This document shows, piece after piece, positions 4,279 through 48,327 of a DNA stretch of 64,000 nt. Made by a program: the position numbers and the translations under genes. Below the pieces are notes generated by a model, which worked only from the letters and a program-made list of their open reading frames with translations, was not told where the DNA came from and made no database searches. Location: NCBI GenBank assembly GCA_022843945.1, contig JALHMR010000001.1:62001-126000 (forward strand), written 5' to 3'. Position 1 is the stretch's first letter; each line of letters begins with the position of its first letter. The stretch is from Rhodospirillaceae bacterium (GTDB lineage Bacteria > Pseudomonadota > Alphaproteobacteria > CACIAM-22H2).

Positions 4279-5664
4279 TCAAGCGCCGAACCGCGCCGCG
4301 ATGACCCCGAAAACCGCGCGCAGGGTCTGCGTTTCCGCCCCTTCCGGCCGGCCCGGCCGGTGATAGGGATTCCAGGCGTAGATATCGAGATGCGCCCAGG
4401 GAATGCCGGCGCCCACGAATTCCTGCAGGAACAGGGCGGCAGTCACCGACCCGGCAAACGGGCCGTCCGAGATGTTGTTGAGGTCTGCGACCTTGCTGTC
4501 GAGACGCGCGCGGTACGGCGCCCAGAGCGGCATGCGCCACAGCGGATCGGCCTCGGCCTGGGCCTGGGCGAGGAGTTCGTCGGCCAGTGCATCGTCGTTG
4601 CAATAGAGCGGTGGCAGATCCGGCCCGAGTGCCACGCGGGCCGCCCCGGTCAGGGTGGCGAAATCCACCATCAGCGCCGGCTTCTCCTCGGAGGCGGCGG
4701 CCAGCGCGTCGGCCAGGATCAACCGGCCTTCGGCATCGGTATTGCCGATCTCGACCGTCAGGCCCTTGCGCGAACGGATCACGTCGAGCGGGCGGAAGGA
4801 ATTTCCGGAAACCGAATTCTCGACGGCGGGCACCAGGACACGCAGGCGCACCGGCAATTTCGCCTCGACCACCATCTGGGCGAGGCCGAGCGCATGTGCC
4901 GCTCCGCCCATGTCCTTCTTCATGATCTTCATGCCGGCATCGTTCTTGAGGTCAAGGCCGCCGGTGTCGAAGCACACGCCCTTGCCGAGGATGGTCACCT
5001 TGGGGTCCGTGGCCTTGCCCCACCGCAGATCGATCAGGCGTGGGGCCCGCGGGCTCGCCCGCCCGACAGCGTGGACGAGCGGGAAACCCTGCTTGAGCAG
5101 CGCCTCGCCCTTGATGACGCTGAAATCCATGCGCAGCGCCTTGGCCATGTCGCGCGCGGCATCCGCGAGCTCCCCCGGCCCCATGTCTTCGGCCGGCGTG
5201 TTGACCAGATCACGGGCAAGGTCGCTGGCCCGGCTGACGCGTTCCACTTGGGCGCGATCGGTCCGGCGCGGCCAGACCAGCTCGGCCGGCTTGCGCGTGG
5301 CTTTGCGATAGCGGGTAAAGCCGTAGGAGCCGACCGCCCAGGCGATGGCCCAGCGCGTCGCCCCGGCATCCGGCTCGGGATCCAGCCGGTAGCTGCCTTC
5401 GGGCAACCGCAAGGGCAGGCCGGCCAGGTGCCAGAAATCGTCGGGGCCGCCGCTGCCGGCGATGCCGGCCAGGACACGGCCGGGAGCCCCATCGCGTCCG
5501 GGCAGAACGCAGACCTCGCCAGGCTTGGCGCTGAAATTGTTGCCCTCGACCCAACGCCGGGTCGCAGCCGGGGCGCTCTTGAGCCAGGCGGCGAACTCCC
5601 GCTTGGTCAGCAGGGTGAGCGGACGCGTGGCGGATGCAGGGCGCGGACGAAAGGGCAGCGGCAA
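4279..5664 (-). CDS. M17 leucyl aminopeptidase family protein
   Basis: A cytosolic zinc/manganese aminopeptidase of about 461 residues, removing N-terminal amino acids from peptides. The catalytic half carries the M17 signatures: GKGVCFDTGG with metal-binding Lys and Asp, a KKDMGGAA segment, and the family signature NTDAEGRL holding the paired Asp and Glu metal ligands. The N-terminal half is divergent, as in the shorter alphaproteobacterial branch rather than E. coli PepA. No ATG or GTG start fits. A TTG at 5664 has GGAGG eight bases upstream and is preferred; a TTG at 5682 is the alternative. It stands alone between the GGDEF gene and the divergent glutathione transferase. Confidence 0.85.
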   Translation of the reverse strand: MPLPFRPRPASATRPLTLLTKREFAAWLKSAPAATRRWVEGNNFSAKPGEVCVLPGRDGAPGRVLAGIAGSGGPDDFWHLAGLPLRLPEGSYRLDPEPDAGATRWAIAWAVGSYGFTRYRKATRKPAELVWPRRTDRAQVERVSRASDLARDLVNTPAEDMGPGELADAARDMAKALRMDFSVIKGEALLKQGFPLVHAVGRASPRAPRLIDLRWGKATDPKVTILGKGVCFDTGGLDLKNDAGMKIMKKDMGGAAHALGLAQMVVEAKLPVRLRVLVPAVENSVSGNSFRPLDVIRSRKGLTVEIGNTDAEGRLILADALAAASEEKPALMVDFATLTGAARVALGPDLPPLYCNDDALADELLAQAQAEADPLWRMPLWAPYRARLDSKVADLNNISDGPFAGSVTAALFLQEFVGAGIPWAHLDIYAWNPYHRPGRPEGAETQTLRAVFGVIAARFGA

Positions 5665-5806
5665 GACACGGGCCTCCGGCAAAAGGATCGGCGGACAGGT
5701 AAGCGGGTTGGTGGGACCGCGTCAAACCCGAGCCCTAGTTTTTCTCGGCTCCTGCCCCAGCTAAGATCGCTGCCCCGAAACGGCGAAACCCCTTAGCGTG
5801 GCGTCC

Positions 5807-6472
5807 ATGAGCGAATTCACCCTGCATATCGGCAACAAGGCCTACTCATCGTGGTCGCTGCGCGGCTGGCTGGCCTGCAAGCTGGCCGGCATCGACTTCC
5901 GCGAGGAGGTGCACGATATGGGTGCCCCCGACTGGTCGACCTTCGTGCGCTCGATCTCGCCCAGCGCCCGGGTTCCGGTGCTCCGCCACGGGGAGATCAC
6001 GGTCTGGGAATCGCTGGCCATCGGCGACTACCTGGCCGATCTGTTTCCGAAAGCCGGGTTGTGGCCGGAAGATCGCGCGGCCCGGGCCGAGGCGCGGGCC
6101 ATTTCGGCGGAGATGCATGCGGGCTTCACCGCCTTGCGCTCGTCGATGTGGATGAACACACGGCGGCGTTTCCCGGGCCGGGGCCGCAATCCCGGCTCGC
6201 TGGCCGATATCGCCCGCATCGTGGCGATCTGGGAGGAGGCGCGCCGCCGCTTCGGTGCCGGGGGGCCGTATCTCTTCGGCAGCCGCATAACCCTGGCGGA
6301 CGCCATGTACGCGCCGGTCGTGGCGCGTTTCGTCACCTGGGAGCCGGATCTGCCGGCCGGCGCCAAGGCCTATGTCGCGGCCGTCTGGGAACACCCGGCC
6401 GTCGTCGAATGGCGCAAGGCGGCCGAGGCCGAGCCCTGGCTCATCACCAAATACGAGACCCCCGGCCCCTGA
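5807..6472 (+). CDS. Glutathione S-transferase family protein
   Basis: This 221-residue cytosolic protein has a thioredoxin-like N-terminal domain starting FTLHIGNKAYSSWSLRGWL. The SSWS segment is where GSTs place the glutathione-activating Ser or Tyr. It continues through RVPVLRHGEITVWESLAIGDYL, the glutathione-binding cis-Pro and Glu-Ser region. The C-terminal half is all helical, with the conserved ITLADAMYAPVVARF motif. It probably conjugates or reduces small electrophiles, but the substrate cannot be told from sequence. ATG at 5807 is chosen over an in-frame GTG at 5798. It converges on the TAXI gene 15 bp downstream. Confidence 0.88.
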   Translation: MSEFTLHIGNKAYSSWSLRGWLACKLAGIDFREEVHDMGAPDWSTFVRSISPSARVPVLRHGEITVWESLAIGDYLADLFPKAGLWPEDRAARAEARAISAEMHAGFTALRSSMWMNTRRRFPGRGRNPGSLADIARIVAIWEEARRRFGAGGPYLFGSRITLADAMYAPVVARFVTWEPDLPAGAKAYVAAVWEHPAVVEWRKAAEAEPWLITKYETPGP

Positions 6473-20970: not shown

Positions 20971-20994
20971 CCCGGTTTTGACGTCATGACCGGG
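20971..20994. promoter_or_regulatory. 24-bp concentric palindrome (possible operator)
   Basis: CCCGGT (20971-20976) and ACCGGG (20989-20994) flank a perfect TGACGTCA (20979-20986) with the same centre, so 10 of 12 base pairs are symmetric. It lies 18 bp after the sulfatase stop and about 100 bp before the tandem unknown genes. There is no U-tract, so an operator for the downstream genes is more likely than a terminator. This is inference from symmetry alone. Confidence 0.35.
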
Positions 20995-21090: not shown

Positions 21091-22275
21091 ATGTTCCGGT
21101 GGGGGATGGGATTGGGCGTGGCCGCTGCCTTATTGGCCAGCGCCGTATCGGCCCAGGACTTCAAAGCCAATCAGGTCATTCGCGACCGTGTCACCATTGG
21201 CGGCAAGCAGATTCCGCTGCCCGAGGGTGAATGGCGGGTCGCCGGCTACGGCTACTCTTCGATCAAGGATTCGAGCTTCAGCAATCTCGGCGCTTTCGGA
21301 TCGGTCGAGAACATCGTCGCCTTCCGCCGTTCGGGAAACACGATCGATTCCTTCGTCGAGATCAATACCAATACGCTGCCGATCATCGACGGCTGGGGCC
21401 TGTCGAAGGAATGCCTGCGTACCGACCTCTATCTGACGGTTACGCGCTTTCGCACCGGCTTTGACGGCGCCTGCTTCTTCATCAAGCGCACCGCGACCGG
21501 CGCCACTAACGGCTCGCTCAAGGCCTGGGTAGCGGCCAAGAACTTCGCCCAGAGCAACAGGCTCGAATTGCCGGCGGGCTGGGTCACGGTCGGCTTCCGC
21601 TTCGCCGACCGGCAGGACATCGTCGACGTGCGTTTCCATTTCAACCCGGCGACGCGCGGCCTGCCCGCCGCGACGCCGACCGCCGACCCGGCAATGGACC
21701 CGTGGGGTGACGAAAAGGTCAAGGCCGACGTGGCGAAGATGCGCTTCGTCGAGGAACTCTCGGTCTGGGGCACCTTTGTCAGCGGTTATTTCCAGAAGGG
21801 CCTGCGCAATCAACTCGCCGCGGCGGACGTGATGCCCATGCCCTCGGCGGCACTGCTCAACCAGCAGCGGCCGGATGTCCAGGAGCGCCTCAAGGCCCTT
21901 GAGAAATTCCGCGCGGAGAACGCGCTGACCCAGTCGCAGTTCGAATCGCAGCGCAACATGATTCTCAATGAAGCGACCGCGGTGGATGCGGGCGGCTGGC
22001 TCAGCCACTCGGTCAAGAAGAACATCTCGTTCCGCGTCTTCGGCTCGATCGTCGACTGGATGCTGGCCTTCGGCGTGACCCTGAGCGCGCCGATCTCGAC
22101 GGCCCTCACCGCGAGCATCGTCGCCGTGCACTCGGTGATCTTCGTGTTCAACGACCGCTACTGGGACAATTACTGGGTCGAGAAGGGCCGCCGTGACGGC
22201 AGCCAGACGGTCGATTTCCACTACATCGGCGACCAGCCGGCGCCCAACATGGTGGTGTCCCATGCGCGCTCCTAA
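21091..22275 (+). CDS. Secreted membrane-anchored protein of unknown function, copy 1 (SHOCT-like and DUF2061-like parts)
   Basis: I do not recognise the whole protein (394 residues). It has a signal peptide (about 1-21) and a periplasmic-type domain with two Cys (108 and 128) that could pair. A short helical SHOCT-like segment follows at about 263-294 (ALEKFRAENALTQSQFESQR). A C-terminal hydrophobic region at about 305-366 ends in DRYWDNYW, resembling DUF2061 (two helices, HERxW-like end). Copy 2 follows with overlap. The two share GKQxPLPxGxWRVAGY, DGWGxSKxC and DxRFxFNPxTRG. GGGGGG lies before the ATG. Function unknown; an envelope stress or sensing role would be guesswork. Confidence 0.85.
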   Translation: MFRWGMGLGVAAALLASAVSAQDFKANQVIRDRVTIGGKQIPLPEGEWRVAGYGYSSIKDSSFSNLGAFGSVENIVAFRRSGNTIDSFVEINTNTLPIIDGWGLSKECLRTDLYLTVTRFRTGFDGACFFIKRTATGATNGSLKAWVAAKNFAQSNRLELPAGWVTVGFRFADRQDIVDVRFHFNPATRGLPAATPTADPAMDPWGDEKVKADVAKMRFVEELSVWGTFVSGYFQKGLRNQLAAADVMPMPSAALLNQQRPDVQERLKALEKFRAENALTQSQFESQRNMILNEATAVDAGGWLSHSVKKNISFRVFGSIVDWMLAFGVTLSAPISTALTASIVAVHSVIFVFNDRYWDNYWVEKGRRDGSQTVDFHYIGDQPAPNMVVSHARS

Positions 22276-23446
22276 GATGATCGCCCGCGTCGCGCTCGGC
22301 GCGGTTTTCCTGGCGGCAGCGGCCGCCCTCCCGGCCGCCGCCCAGCCCCTGGGCACGGACGATTTCAGGCTCGATCAGCGGCTCTCGGGCGTCTTCACGG
22401 TCGCCGGCAAGCAGGTGCCGCTACCCGCCGGCGACTGGCGGGTGGCGGGCTATCGCAAGATGACGATCGAGACGGGGCTGATCAATTACGGCGCCTATGG
22501 TGTCATCCACAACATCGTCCTGTTCAAGACCAGCGGCAGCACGGTCGACGCCCTGCTCGATCTCAACGTCAACGCGCTGCCCGTGAACGACGGCTGGGGC
22601 ATCTCCAAGGATTGCGAGCGGCAGGATTTCTACGCGACGATCGCCCGCTACAAGTCCGGCTGGGATGCGTCGTGCCTGTTCCTCTATCACACGCAGACCG
22701 CCGCCACGGACAAGACGTCGCGCGCCTGGGGCGACGCGATGAACTACGCCAAGGAAAAGAAGCTGACCCTGCCGTTGAGCTGGGTCACGGCCGGCTTCCG
22801 CGTCGCCACCCGCAGCGACGTGGTTGACGCCCGCTTCTCCTTCAATCCCGAGACCCGCGGCATGAAAGCCTCGAACGGCGCCTGGGACCAGAGCCCTTGG
22901 CACAAGACCAAGTTCGAGGCCGATCCGGCCAAGGTGGCGTTCATCGCGGCGCTGGCGACCTGGGCCGGACCCTATGCCCAGAACATCGAAGAGGGCATGA
23001 AGAACCGCCTTCTGGTGAAAGACGGCTATCCGATGCCCTTCGCCAACGCGGCGAAGGCGGAGGACAAGAGCATCGCCGCGCGCCTCAAGACCCTCGACAA
23101 GCTGTATGCCGAGAAGGGCGTGACGGAAGAGGACTACAAGGCCCAGCGCGAGGCGATCGCCTCGGGCAAGGCCGACGAGCCGATTGCCCAGCCCGACGCG
23201 CCGACCATCGCCTTCTGGAAGACCGTGGCCTACCGGCCGATGGTCTCCACCGCCAACATCTTCATCGACTACTACTGGGTCGGCTCGCCCTTCGCCACCG
23301 GCGTGCTCGTCATCCTGCAGATCCTGGTCAACACGACCAAGTTCTACTTCCACGAGGTCGCCTGGGAGCGCTTCGTGGGGGCGGGATCCGGCAAGCGCGA
23401 CGCGCCGCGGACGATCGACTTCACCTACGCCGCCGTCAACAGCTGA
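22262..23446 (+). CDS. Secreted membrane-anchored protein of unknown function, copy 2
   Basis: A 394-residue paralog of the preceding protein. It has a signal peptide ending near PAAAQ. The N-terminal domain has the same Cys pair (SKDC and DASC) and the same conserved WRVAGY and DGWG segments. A SHOCT-like segment (LKTLDKLYAEKGVTEEDYKAQR) follows, then a C-terminal part with FHEVAWERFVG that matches DUF2061 better than copy 1 does. The start could be ATG at 22262 (14-bp overlap with copy 1) or ATG at 22277 (one base after its stop). An intrinsic terminator follows, so the two genes are a closed transcription unit. Tandem duplication and divergence are clear; the role is not known. Confidence 0.85.
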   Translation: MRAPKMIARVALGAVFLAAAAALPAAAQPLGTDDFRLDQRLSGVFTVAGKQVPLPAGDWRVAGYRKMTIETGLINYGAYGVIHNIVLFKTSGSTVDALLDLNVNALPVNDGWGISKDCERQDFYATIARYKSGWDASCLFLYHTQTAATDKTSRAWGDAMNYAKEKKLTLPLSWVTAGFRVATRSDVVDARFSFNPETRGMKASNGAWDQSPWHKTKFEADPAKVAFIAALATWAGPYAQNIEEGMKNRLLVKDGYPMPFANAAKAEDKSIAARLKTLDKLYAEKGVTEEDYKAQREAIASGKADEPIAQPDAPTIAFWKTVAYRPMVSTANIFIDYYWVGSPFATGVLVILQILVNTTKFYFHEVAWERFVGAGSGKRDAPRTIDFTYAAVNS

Positions 23447-23467: not shown

Positions 23468-23514
23468 AAGGGGGCCGGCAGCACCCGGAAGGGCGCTGCC
23501 GGCCCTTTGCTTTT
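23468..23514 (+). terminator. Intrinsic terminator after the tandem secreted genes
   Basis: A perfect 11-bp stem, GGGCCGGCAGC (23472-23482) with GCTGCCGGCCC (23495-23505), and a 12-base loop is followed by TTTGCTTTT. It lies 25 bases past the stop of copy 2 and would end that two-gene unit. Confidence 0.85.
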
Positions 23515-48237: not shown

Positions 48238-48327
48238 TGGCGGAGGGAGTGGGATTCGAACCCACGTTACGGTTTCCCGTAAACACGCTTTCCAAGCGTG
48301 CGCCTTAAGCCACTCGGCCATCCCTCC
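48238..48327 (-). tRNA. tRNA-Ser(GGA)
   Basis: The minus strand folds as a 90-base class II tRNA with encoded CCA (48240-48238). The acceptor arms are GGAGGGA (48327-48321) and TCCCTCC (48248-48242), with discriminator G at 48241. The anticodon stem CACGC/GCGTG encloses TTGGAAA, giving anticodon GGA. The long variable arm TTACGGGAAACCGTAA is serine-like. The T-arm has GGTTCGAATCC. It lies 8 bases after the kinase stop and is transcribed toward it. Confidence 0.97.

Follow-up and report, generated by a model that had tools for sequence, protein, structure and literature searches.

The window, that is, the whole stretch of 64,000 nucleotides that was analysed, contains two adjacent genes on the forward strand whose products are paralogs with a common architecture (Table 1). 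Alignment of the two proteins gave 35% identity over 370 residues (E 4e-85), by which a chance resemblance of the two frames was ruled out. The gene finder favoured ATG 21106 as the start of the first gene. The second gene begins either at ATG 22277, leaving a 1-nt gap behind the first gene, or at the alternative ATG 22262, in which case the genes overlap by 14 nt and the product has 394 amino acids. Both proteins have the same order of parts, namely a signal peptide, an N-terminal domain (NTD) with a pair of cysteines, a short SHOCT-like segment, and a DUF2061-like end, as an earlier note on this DNA had described. That note had called the proteins secreted; the signal-peptide-like start is present in both, but the wording is better changed to exported and probably membrane-anchored.

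Table 1 Features of the two-gene locus (positions in the window).
Feature	Position	Strand	Remarks
Imperfect inverted repeat, candidate operator	20971-20994		12-nt arms, upstream of the pair
First gene of the pair	21091-22275	+	394 aa; alternative ATG 21106
Signal peptide, first protein	21091-21153	+	MFRWGMGLGVAAALLASAVSA; by eye and hydropathy peak 1.47
NTD, first protein	21157-21852	+	aa 23-254; C108/C128; PLPxGxW
SHOCT-like two-helix segment, first protein	21871-21978	+	about aa 261-296; from alignments and model
DUF2061 hairpin, first protein	22015-22167	+	aa 309-359; HE replaced by ND
Second gene of the pair	22277-23446	+	389 aa from ATG 22277
Signal peptide, second protein	22277-22342	+	MIARVALGAVFLAAAAALPAAA; by eye and hydropathy peak 1.94
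NTD, second protein	22361-23047	+	C118/C138, numbered from 22262
SHOCT-like segment, second protein	23081-23158	+	11.0 bits
DUF2061-like hairpin, second protein	23219-23368	+	HE kept
Terminator hairpin closing the two-gene unit	23469-23508	+	14-pair stem, U-rich tail after it

The terminator previously proposed for the unit was supported by its stem and by RNA folding (-38.9 kcal/mol, z -5.05), none of 200 shuffled sequences being equally stable. The consensus terminator scan did not list this hairpin, probably because of the loop limit of the scan. The possible operator fared less well: the inverted repeat is present with arms that are 83% complementary, but its folding was not notable (z -1.15), leaving a weak candidate. 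The promoter scan of the unit found no sigma-70-like promoter.

According to Pfam, the upstream neighbours of the pair are a TctC-like receptor and a sulfatase, and the downstream neighbours are a metallo-beta-lactamase-like protein and a sodium/proton exchanger with a TrkA_N domain; none of these four nearest genes hints at a pathway shared with the pair. The metallo-beta-lactamase-like protein was matched in 18 of the 23 genomes of the window's family. In 11 loci from other genomes, with short flanks and poor gene calls, no counterpart of the sulfatase or the exchanger was detected next to it, and an empty site could not be defined within the family because of these flanks and gene calls. 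The G+C content of the pair (0.63-0.66) is slightly under that of the surroundings (0.655-0.72), which is not telling. An origin from a mobile element was rejected, the second protein having no match in 72,556 plasmid records and the first none in 50,697 phage records. The sole RNA gene given for the window by Rfam and ARAGORN is a tRNA-Ser (GGA) at 48238-48327 on the minus strand.

The N-terminal domain and the SHOCT-like segment

The NTD is about 230 residues long. Its profile search, named in the earlier note as a check, gave no usable match in Pfam, NCBIfam, or PHROGs; the curated families were thus rejected as its identity, and no well-known family was matched. The conserved cysteine pair that had been pointed out held up well: C108 and C128 of the first protein do not vary across a 10-member alignment, and both cysteines occur in 36 of 40 aligned NTD stretches. 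Three of the others lack coverage of the columns, and the fourth, the relative at L039 (1504-2235), has Ile and Gly in place of the two cysteines. The WRVAGY motif is literally present in both window proteins, but the form found throughout the family is PLPxGxW.

With a profile made from the three copies of the window's genome, 37 distinct open frames were detected in the loci searched. In these the NTD stands alone, with a SHOCT-like end, doubled, before an unnamed domain, or before a DUF2061-like end, from which a SHOCT-like segment usually separates it, so that it constitutes an uncatalogued family with several C-terminal contexts. The unnamed C-terminal domain (L006-L009) has roughly 150-170 residues, and one of its members is weakly DUF3108-like (15.3 bits, cut-off 26). 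Two NTDs in one chain were seen at L049 (357-1757) and L051 (7440-8887), the second NTD of L051 being apparently broken by a frame change. The tandem pair at L050 (7782-9541) is of another kind: both of its NTD proteins lack DUF2061 and end in a SHOCT-like part (15.8 and 23.9 bits, against the cut-off of 27). Another genome of the window's family has two adjoining NTD genes, also without DUF2061, 25 nt apart (L007, 1405-3598). Some lone-NTD proteins carry a cysteine at a lipobox-like place; among relatives without DUF2061, this residue was found in four (L027 and L029 by script, L021 and L022 by eye), and it may provide these proteins with another route to the membrane.

For SHOCT (PF09851), the curated cut-off is 27 bits. 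The second window protein reached 11.0 bits and the first had no listed match, while the model of the first protein has helices at residues 261-275 and 281-296 in the segment. Nine proteins among the relatives scored 12.1-23.9 bits, others were unlisted, and only L042, in which the segment is C-terminal behind the same NTD, exceeded the cut-off (29.3 bits). By eye, the segment is absent from L052 and from the first genes of L015 and L048. The likeness to SHOCT is thus weaker in the window than the earlier note had stated.

AlphaFold models of both window proteins, built from one alignment of ten sequences, had pLDDT values of 71.9 and 70.9, and the NTD was a beta sheet with helices in both. 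In a structural second look, the best Z was 8.0 for the second protein (CyanoP, 4.2 A, 134 residues) and 7.5 for the first (Mog1, 4.2 A, 146 residues), a Z of 7-8 being, by the tool's own note, the typical best score of models without a clear match. Rows of PsbP/CyanoP, Mog1, and PknH, many of them the same protein (PsbP), topped both lists; BT_1490 was also among the top rows (Z 7.5 and 6.0), and TiME, Apa, Tsi3, and DcrB came lower (Z about 5-6.6). We take PsbP/CyanoP, Mog1, the PknH sensor domain, Apa, TiME, and Tsi3 to form one Mog1p/PsbP-like group. In Foldseek, run with the second protein only, the top rank went to GntR effector domains (E 8.8e-4, TMt up to about 0.5). The GntR effector fold was not adopted because its rows (GntR/HutC effector-binding, UTRA-like; Z about 4.5-5.5) scored lower in the second look than those of PsbP and Mog1. 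The window proteins had no sequence match to solved structures (best E 0.19), and no sequence-profile relation to a Mog1p/PsbP-like member was found in Pfam, NCBIfam, or the sequences of solved structures. The models suggest that the NTD is nearest to the Mog1p/PsbP-like fold, a borderline assignment; the domain described as new is so in having no curated sequence family, but possibly not in its fold.

Recurrence, history, and predicted membrane end of the pair

A third NTD-DUF2061 gene, single, was found elsewhere in the window's genome (L005). It is preceded by a gene for what is presumably an HxlR-like regulator, and about 3 kb upstream of it lie two genes for small exported proteins with hydrophobic stretches; these features were noted at 5282-6170 and 9198-10475 of L005. 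None of the 22 other genomes of the window's family, the only family of its order covered (23 genomes), has an NTD-DUF2061 pair. In the class sample, at least 80 of 385 genomes matched the three-copy profile, the majority through their DUF2061 part alone, and at least 18 matched in the NTD according to our reading of the ranges. In the phylum sample, at least 91 of 398 genomes matched; by the same kind of reading, nearly all did so only in the DUF2061 part and at least 4 in the NTD. Up to four candidates per genome were scored in either sample. A scan of species genomes added four loci, from Thalassobaculum fulvum KCTC 42651 (L013), a Rhodospirillales MAG, and MAGs labelled Nitrosovibrio and Asaia, the last two names being given as labelled.

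Altogether, ten loci combine the NTD with a DUF2061-like end, L019 and L048 being one locus counted once. Two are single genes (L005 and L052) and eight are tandem pairs (the window, L012, L013, L014, L015, L046, L047, and L048). Neither protein of L048 matches the DUF2061 model, and this locus was counted among the pairs because of its kinship with L015; without it, seven of nine loci are tandem. The co-occurrence in other genomes on which the earlier note had staked its proposal was thus found, as an ordered tandem pair in 8/10 loci (7/9 without L048). The genes of the pair overlap by 4 nt (ATGA) in L013, L014, L015, and L047. L012 has the same overlap from ATG 9068 or a 17-nt gap from ATG 9089, L046 has an 11-nt gap or a 4-nt overlap from an alternative GTG, and L048 has a 10-nt gap.

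In a tree of 23 proteins, the first genes of the window, L012, L013, L046, and L047 formed one clade (support 100/98). The second genes of these five loci formed no clade in the best tree; in AU tests, for which the groupings were chosen after the tree had been seen, their grouping was not rejected (p 0.345), and sisterhood of the two window genes was (p 0.0009). One duplication for all eight pairs was rejected for the eight first genes (p 0.015) as well as for the eight second genes (p 3e-5). Clades of seven loci were likewise rejected (p 0.017 for the first genes and 0.040 for the second), and L014, L015, and L048 therefore have another or an unresolved history. In the other five loci, an old duplication has been kept in fixed order. 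The divergence of the copies, from which a heteromer had been proposed, predates the separation of at least five lineages, as indicated by the first-gene clade and by the rejection of the window genes as sisters, and a heteromer is therefore favoured.

The DUF2061 model (PF09834) has a curated cut-off of 23.1 bits, which was exceeded by the first window protein (23.6 bits) and just missed by the second (22.2 bits). Together with 52.9 bits for the third copy, these scores bear out the claimed DUF2061-like nature of the C-terminal part. Over the ten loci, the cut-off was passed by 11 of 18 proteins (3/8 first, 6/8 second, and 2/2 single). Both models have two long C-terminal helices, of low to middling confidence, with hydropathy peaks of 1.4-2.0. 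At the place of the DUF2061 His-Glu, all five first proteins of the clade (window, L012, L013, L046, and L047) have Asn-Asp, and all five second proteins of these loci keep His-Glu.

Residues and flanks were compared in the 16 of 18 fused NTD-DUF2061 rows that passed the search and in 35 DUF2061 rows from outside the NTD family, some of the latter being near-duplicates and a few lying inside longer frames. In the outside rows, Lys and Arg averaged 1.4 in the front flank and 2.5 in the rear flank (vs 1.1 Asp and Glu), as would be expected if both ends were cytoplasmic. The rear flank of the fused rows was net negative (1.1 Lys/Arg vs 1.9 Asp/Glu), as would be expected of a position outside. Their front flank keeps Lys and Arg (mean 2.1) despite the exported domain ahead of it, and these charges before the hairpin would fit poorly with the periplasmic side.

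In three of the five clade loci (L013, L046, and L047), the first gene is preceded, at a distance of 54-71 nt, by a gene for a small exported glycine-rich protein in which two hydrophobic stretches can be seen by eye. L013 has a second small exported protein downstream of the pair. Three of the four small exported protein sequences were scanned against Pfam and had no usable match. In the class sample, with up to 11 candidates scored per genome, the small protein was matched in at least 5 of 385 genomes: it adjoins the pair in G370 and G399, lies at another place in G073, whose NTD-DUF2061 gene is single, and was also matched in G294 and G295, neither of which has a listed NTD match. No small upstream protein was found in the window's genome or at the L012 locus. 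In L047, an inverted repeat resembling a hairpin was seen by eye in the interval from the small gene to the pair.

A putative envelope complex and alternative explanations

The conserved, uncatalogued protein pair is real, and the earlier note described it for the most part correctly. We estimate at about 0.45 the probability that it is one unit coding two subunits of a cell-envelope complex, and a membrane-anchored periplasmic assembly or sensor complex is the most likely form of it. The two products probably work together because the same ordered pair recurs in distant relatives, and a heteromer of the first and second proteins may reasonably be inferred from the sequences. In the proposed mechanism, each protein would be exported by its signal peptide, and its NTD would adopt a disulfide-stabilised Mog1p/PsbP-like fold in the periplasm. 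Through the SHOCT-like segment, this domain would be joined to the DUF2061 hairpin in or on the inner membrane. There the hairpins of the two proteins, the one carrying His-Glu and the other Asn-Asp in the equivalent position, would pair as a heteromer. By analogy, the complex might hold a partner protein, or sense it, on the periplasmic side of the inner membrane; a role as an assembly, stability, or stress-sensing factor is suggested by membrane-tethered Mog1p/PsbP-like proteins. In some lineages, the small exported protein may be a third part. An undescribed envelope complex made up in full of two Mog1p/PsbP-like proteins, asymmetric HE/ND DUF2061 hairpins, and, in some lineages, a small glycine-rich third subunit is rather improbable, and the three-subunit reading is weakened by the hairpin-like repeat in L047; if true, it would assign both a partner and a location to DUF2061.

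The paralogs might also act separately, as an old tandem duplicate with diverged binding partners that is held together only by co-transcription. This is possible, though on the whole unlikely. Single copies do exist, in the window's own genome and at L052; co-expression alone would keep order and overlap as well, and the DUF2061 part of the first proteins has drifted, as judged from their smaller share above the cut-off. Against it, up to five of the eight pairs share a 4-nt gene overlap, the arrangement spans at least five diverged lineages, and the HE/ND difference splits cleanly by gene position in the five loci.

An envelope stress or redox factor built on DUF2061, in which the hairpin is active and the NTD only localises or gates it, appears distinctly improbable. 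Outside the window, the genome has a separate DUF2061 gene that follows AhpC-like and AhpD/CMD-like genes in a row (L075, 1441-2849, minus strand; G000 contig C1 near 149.6 kb), and the same row occurs in a genus-mate (L067). This setting hints at oxidative or iron stress and is no evidence for the pair itself; of the 38 loci searched, only 3 had an AhpC match within the flanks. Two of these belong to a single genus, and the match in the third, at 41% identity, lies on the other strand. In available passages of the literature, DUF2061 genes appear among the entries of an iron/Fur table for Caulobacter (PMC3751524) and of an SsoR/iron table for Shewanella (PMC12442407), and the DUF2061 protein PA3237 is connected with polymyxin B resistance and, as a suggestion, with oxidative stress (PMC12632274). 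The absence of the HE pair from the first proteins of the five-locus clade speaks against this reading. Immunity or conflict proteins, that is, Tsi3-like periplasmic Mog1p/PsbP-like proteins duplicated against different effectors, would account for the patchy distribution, the tandem copies, and the Tsi3 and TplEi chains among the fold rows. We consider this very unlikely, as the four nearest neighbours are not effectors and the plasmid (second protein) and phage (first protein) records gave no match; to our knowledge, immunity proteins usually have no DUF2061 hairpin. Two subunits of one envelope complex thus remain our preferred reading.

Comparison with known systems

None of the papers available combines SHOCT and PsbP, and no such pair is described in the available passages of the DUF2061 literature (PMC3751524, PMC12442407, and PMC12632274). 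The window proteins resemble the Mog1p/PsbP-like proteins in their exported location and, at borderline scores, in the predicted fold of residues of about 30-247, but their NTD has no detectable sequence relation to that group and has its own cysteine pair and PLPxGxW. Mog1p/PsbP-like proteins have a lipid anchor or a single helix, whereas the window proteins have a DUF2061 end instead; as they carry no cysteine at the end of the signal peptide, a lipid anchor of the DcrB/DUF1795 type is not indicated.

In the available passages of PMC4524185 and PMC7716261, PA0094, DcrB, and PA1624 are placed in the Mog1p/PsbP-like group, and for the Mog1p/PsbP-like EagR1 proteins a role in protein interactions has been suggested (PMC4524185). 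PA1624 of Pseudomonas aeruginosa is, as proposed for the window proteins, periplasmic with an N-terminal domain only distantly Mog1p/PsbP-like (PMC7716261), but its second domain is OmpA-like, and DUF2061 is unmentioned in those passages. The likeness to SHOCT lies in the short two-helix segment and in the C-terminal match of L042; the segment of the window proteins differs in being internal and under the curated cut-off. For SHOCT itself, oligomerisation was unsupported by initial experiments, according to the available part of PMC3581485.

DUF2061, a predicted membrane protein family, is common, and Pfam gives it no function; a conserved pair in which it is coupled with an exported domain and a constant partner offers a way to test its role. 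The C-terminal 50 or so residues of the window proteins share with this family the KTxS[WYF]R-like start and two predicted helices and, in the second protein, the HExxW end. They differ from it in that the hairpin is fused behind an exported NTD, in that the first protein has ND in place of HE, and in that the flank following the hairpin is net negative in the fused proteins and positive in the family.
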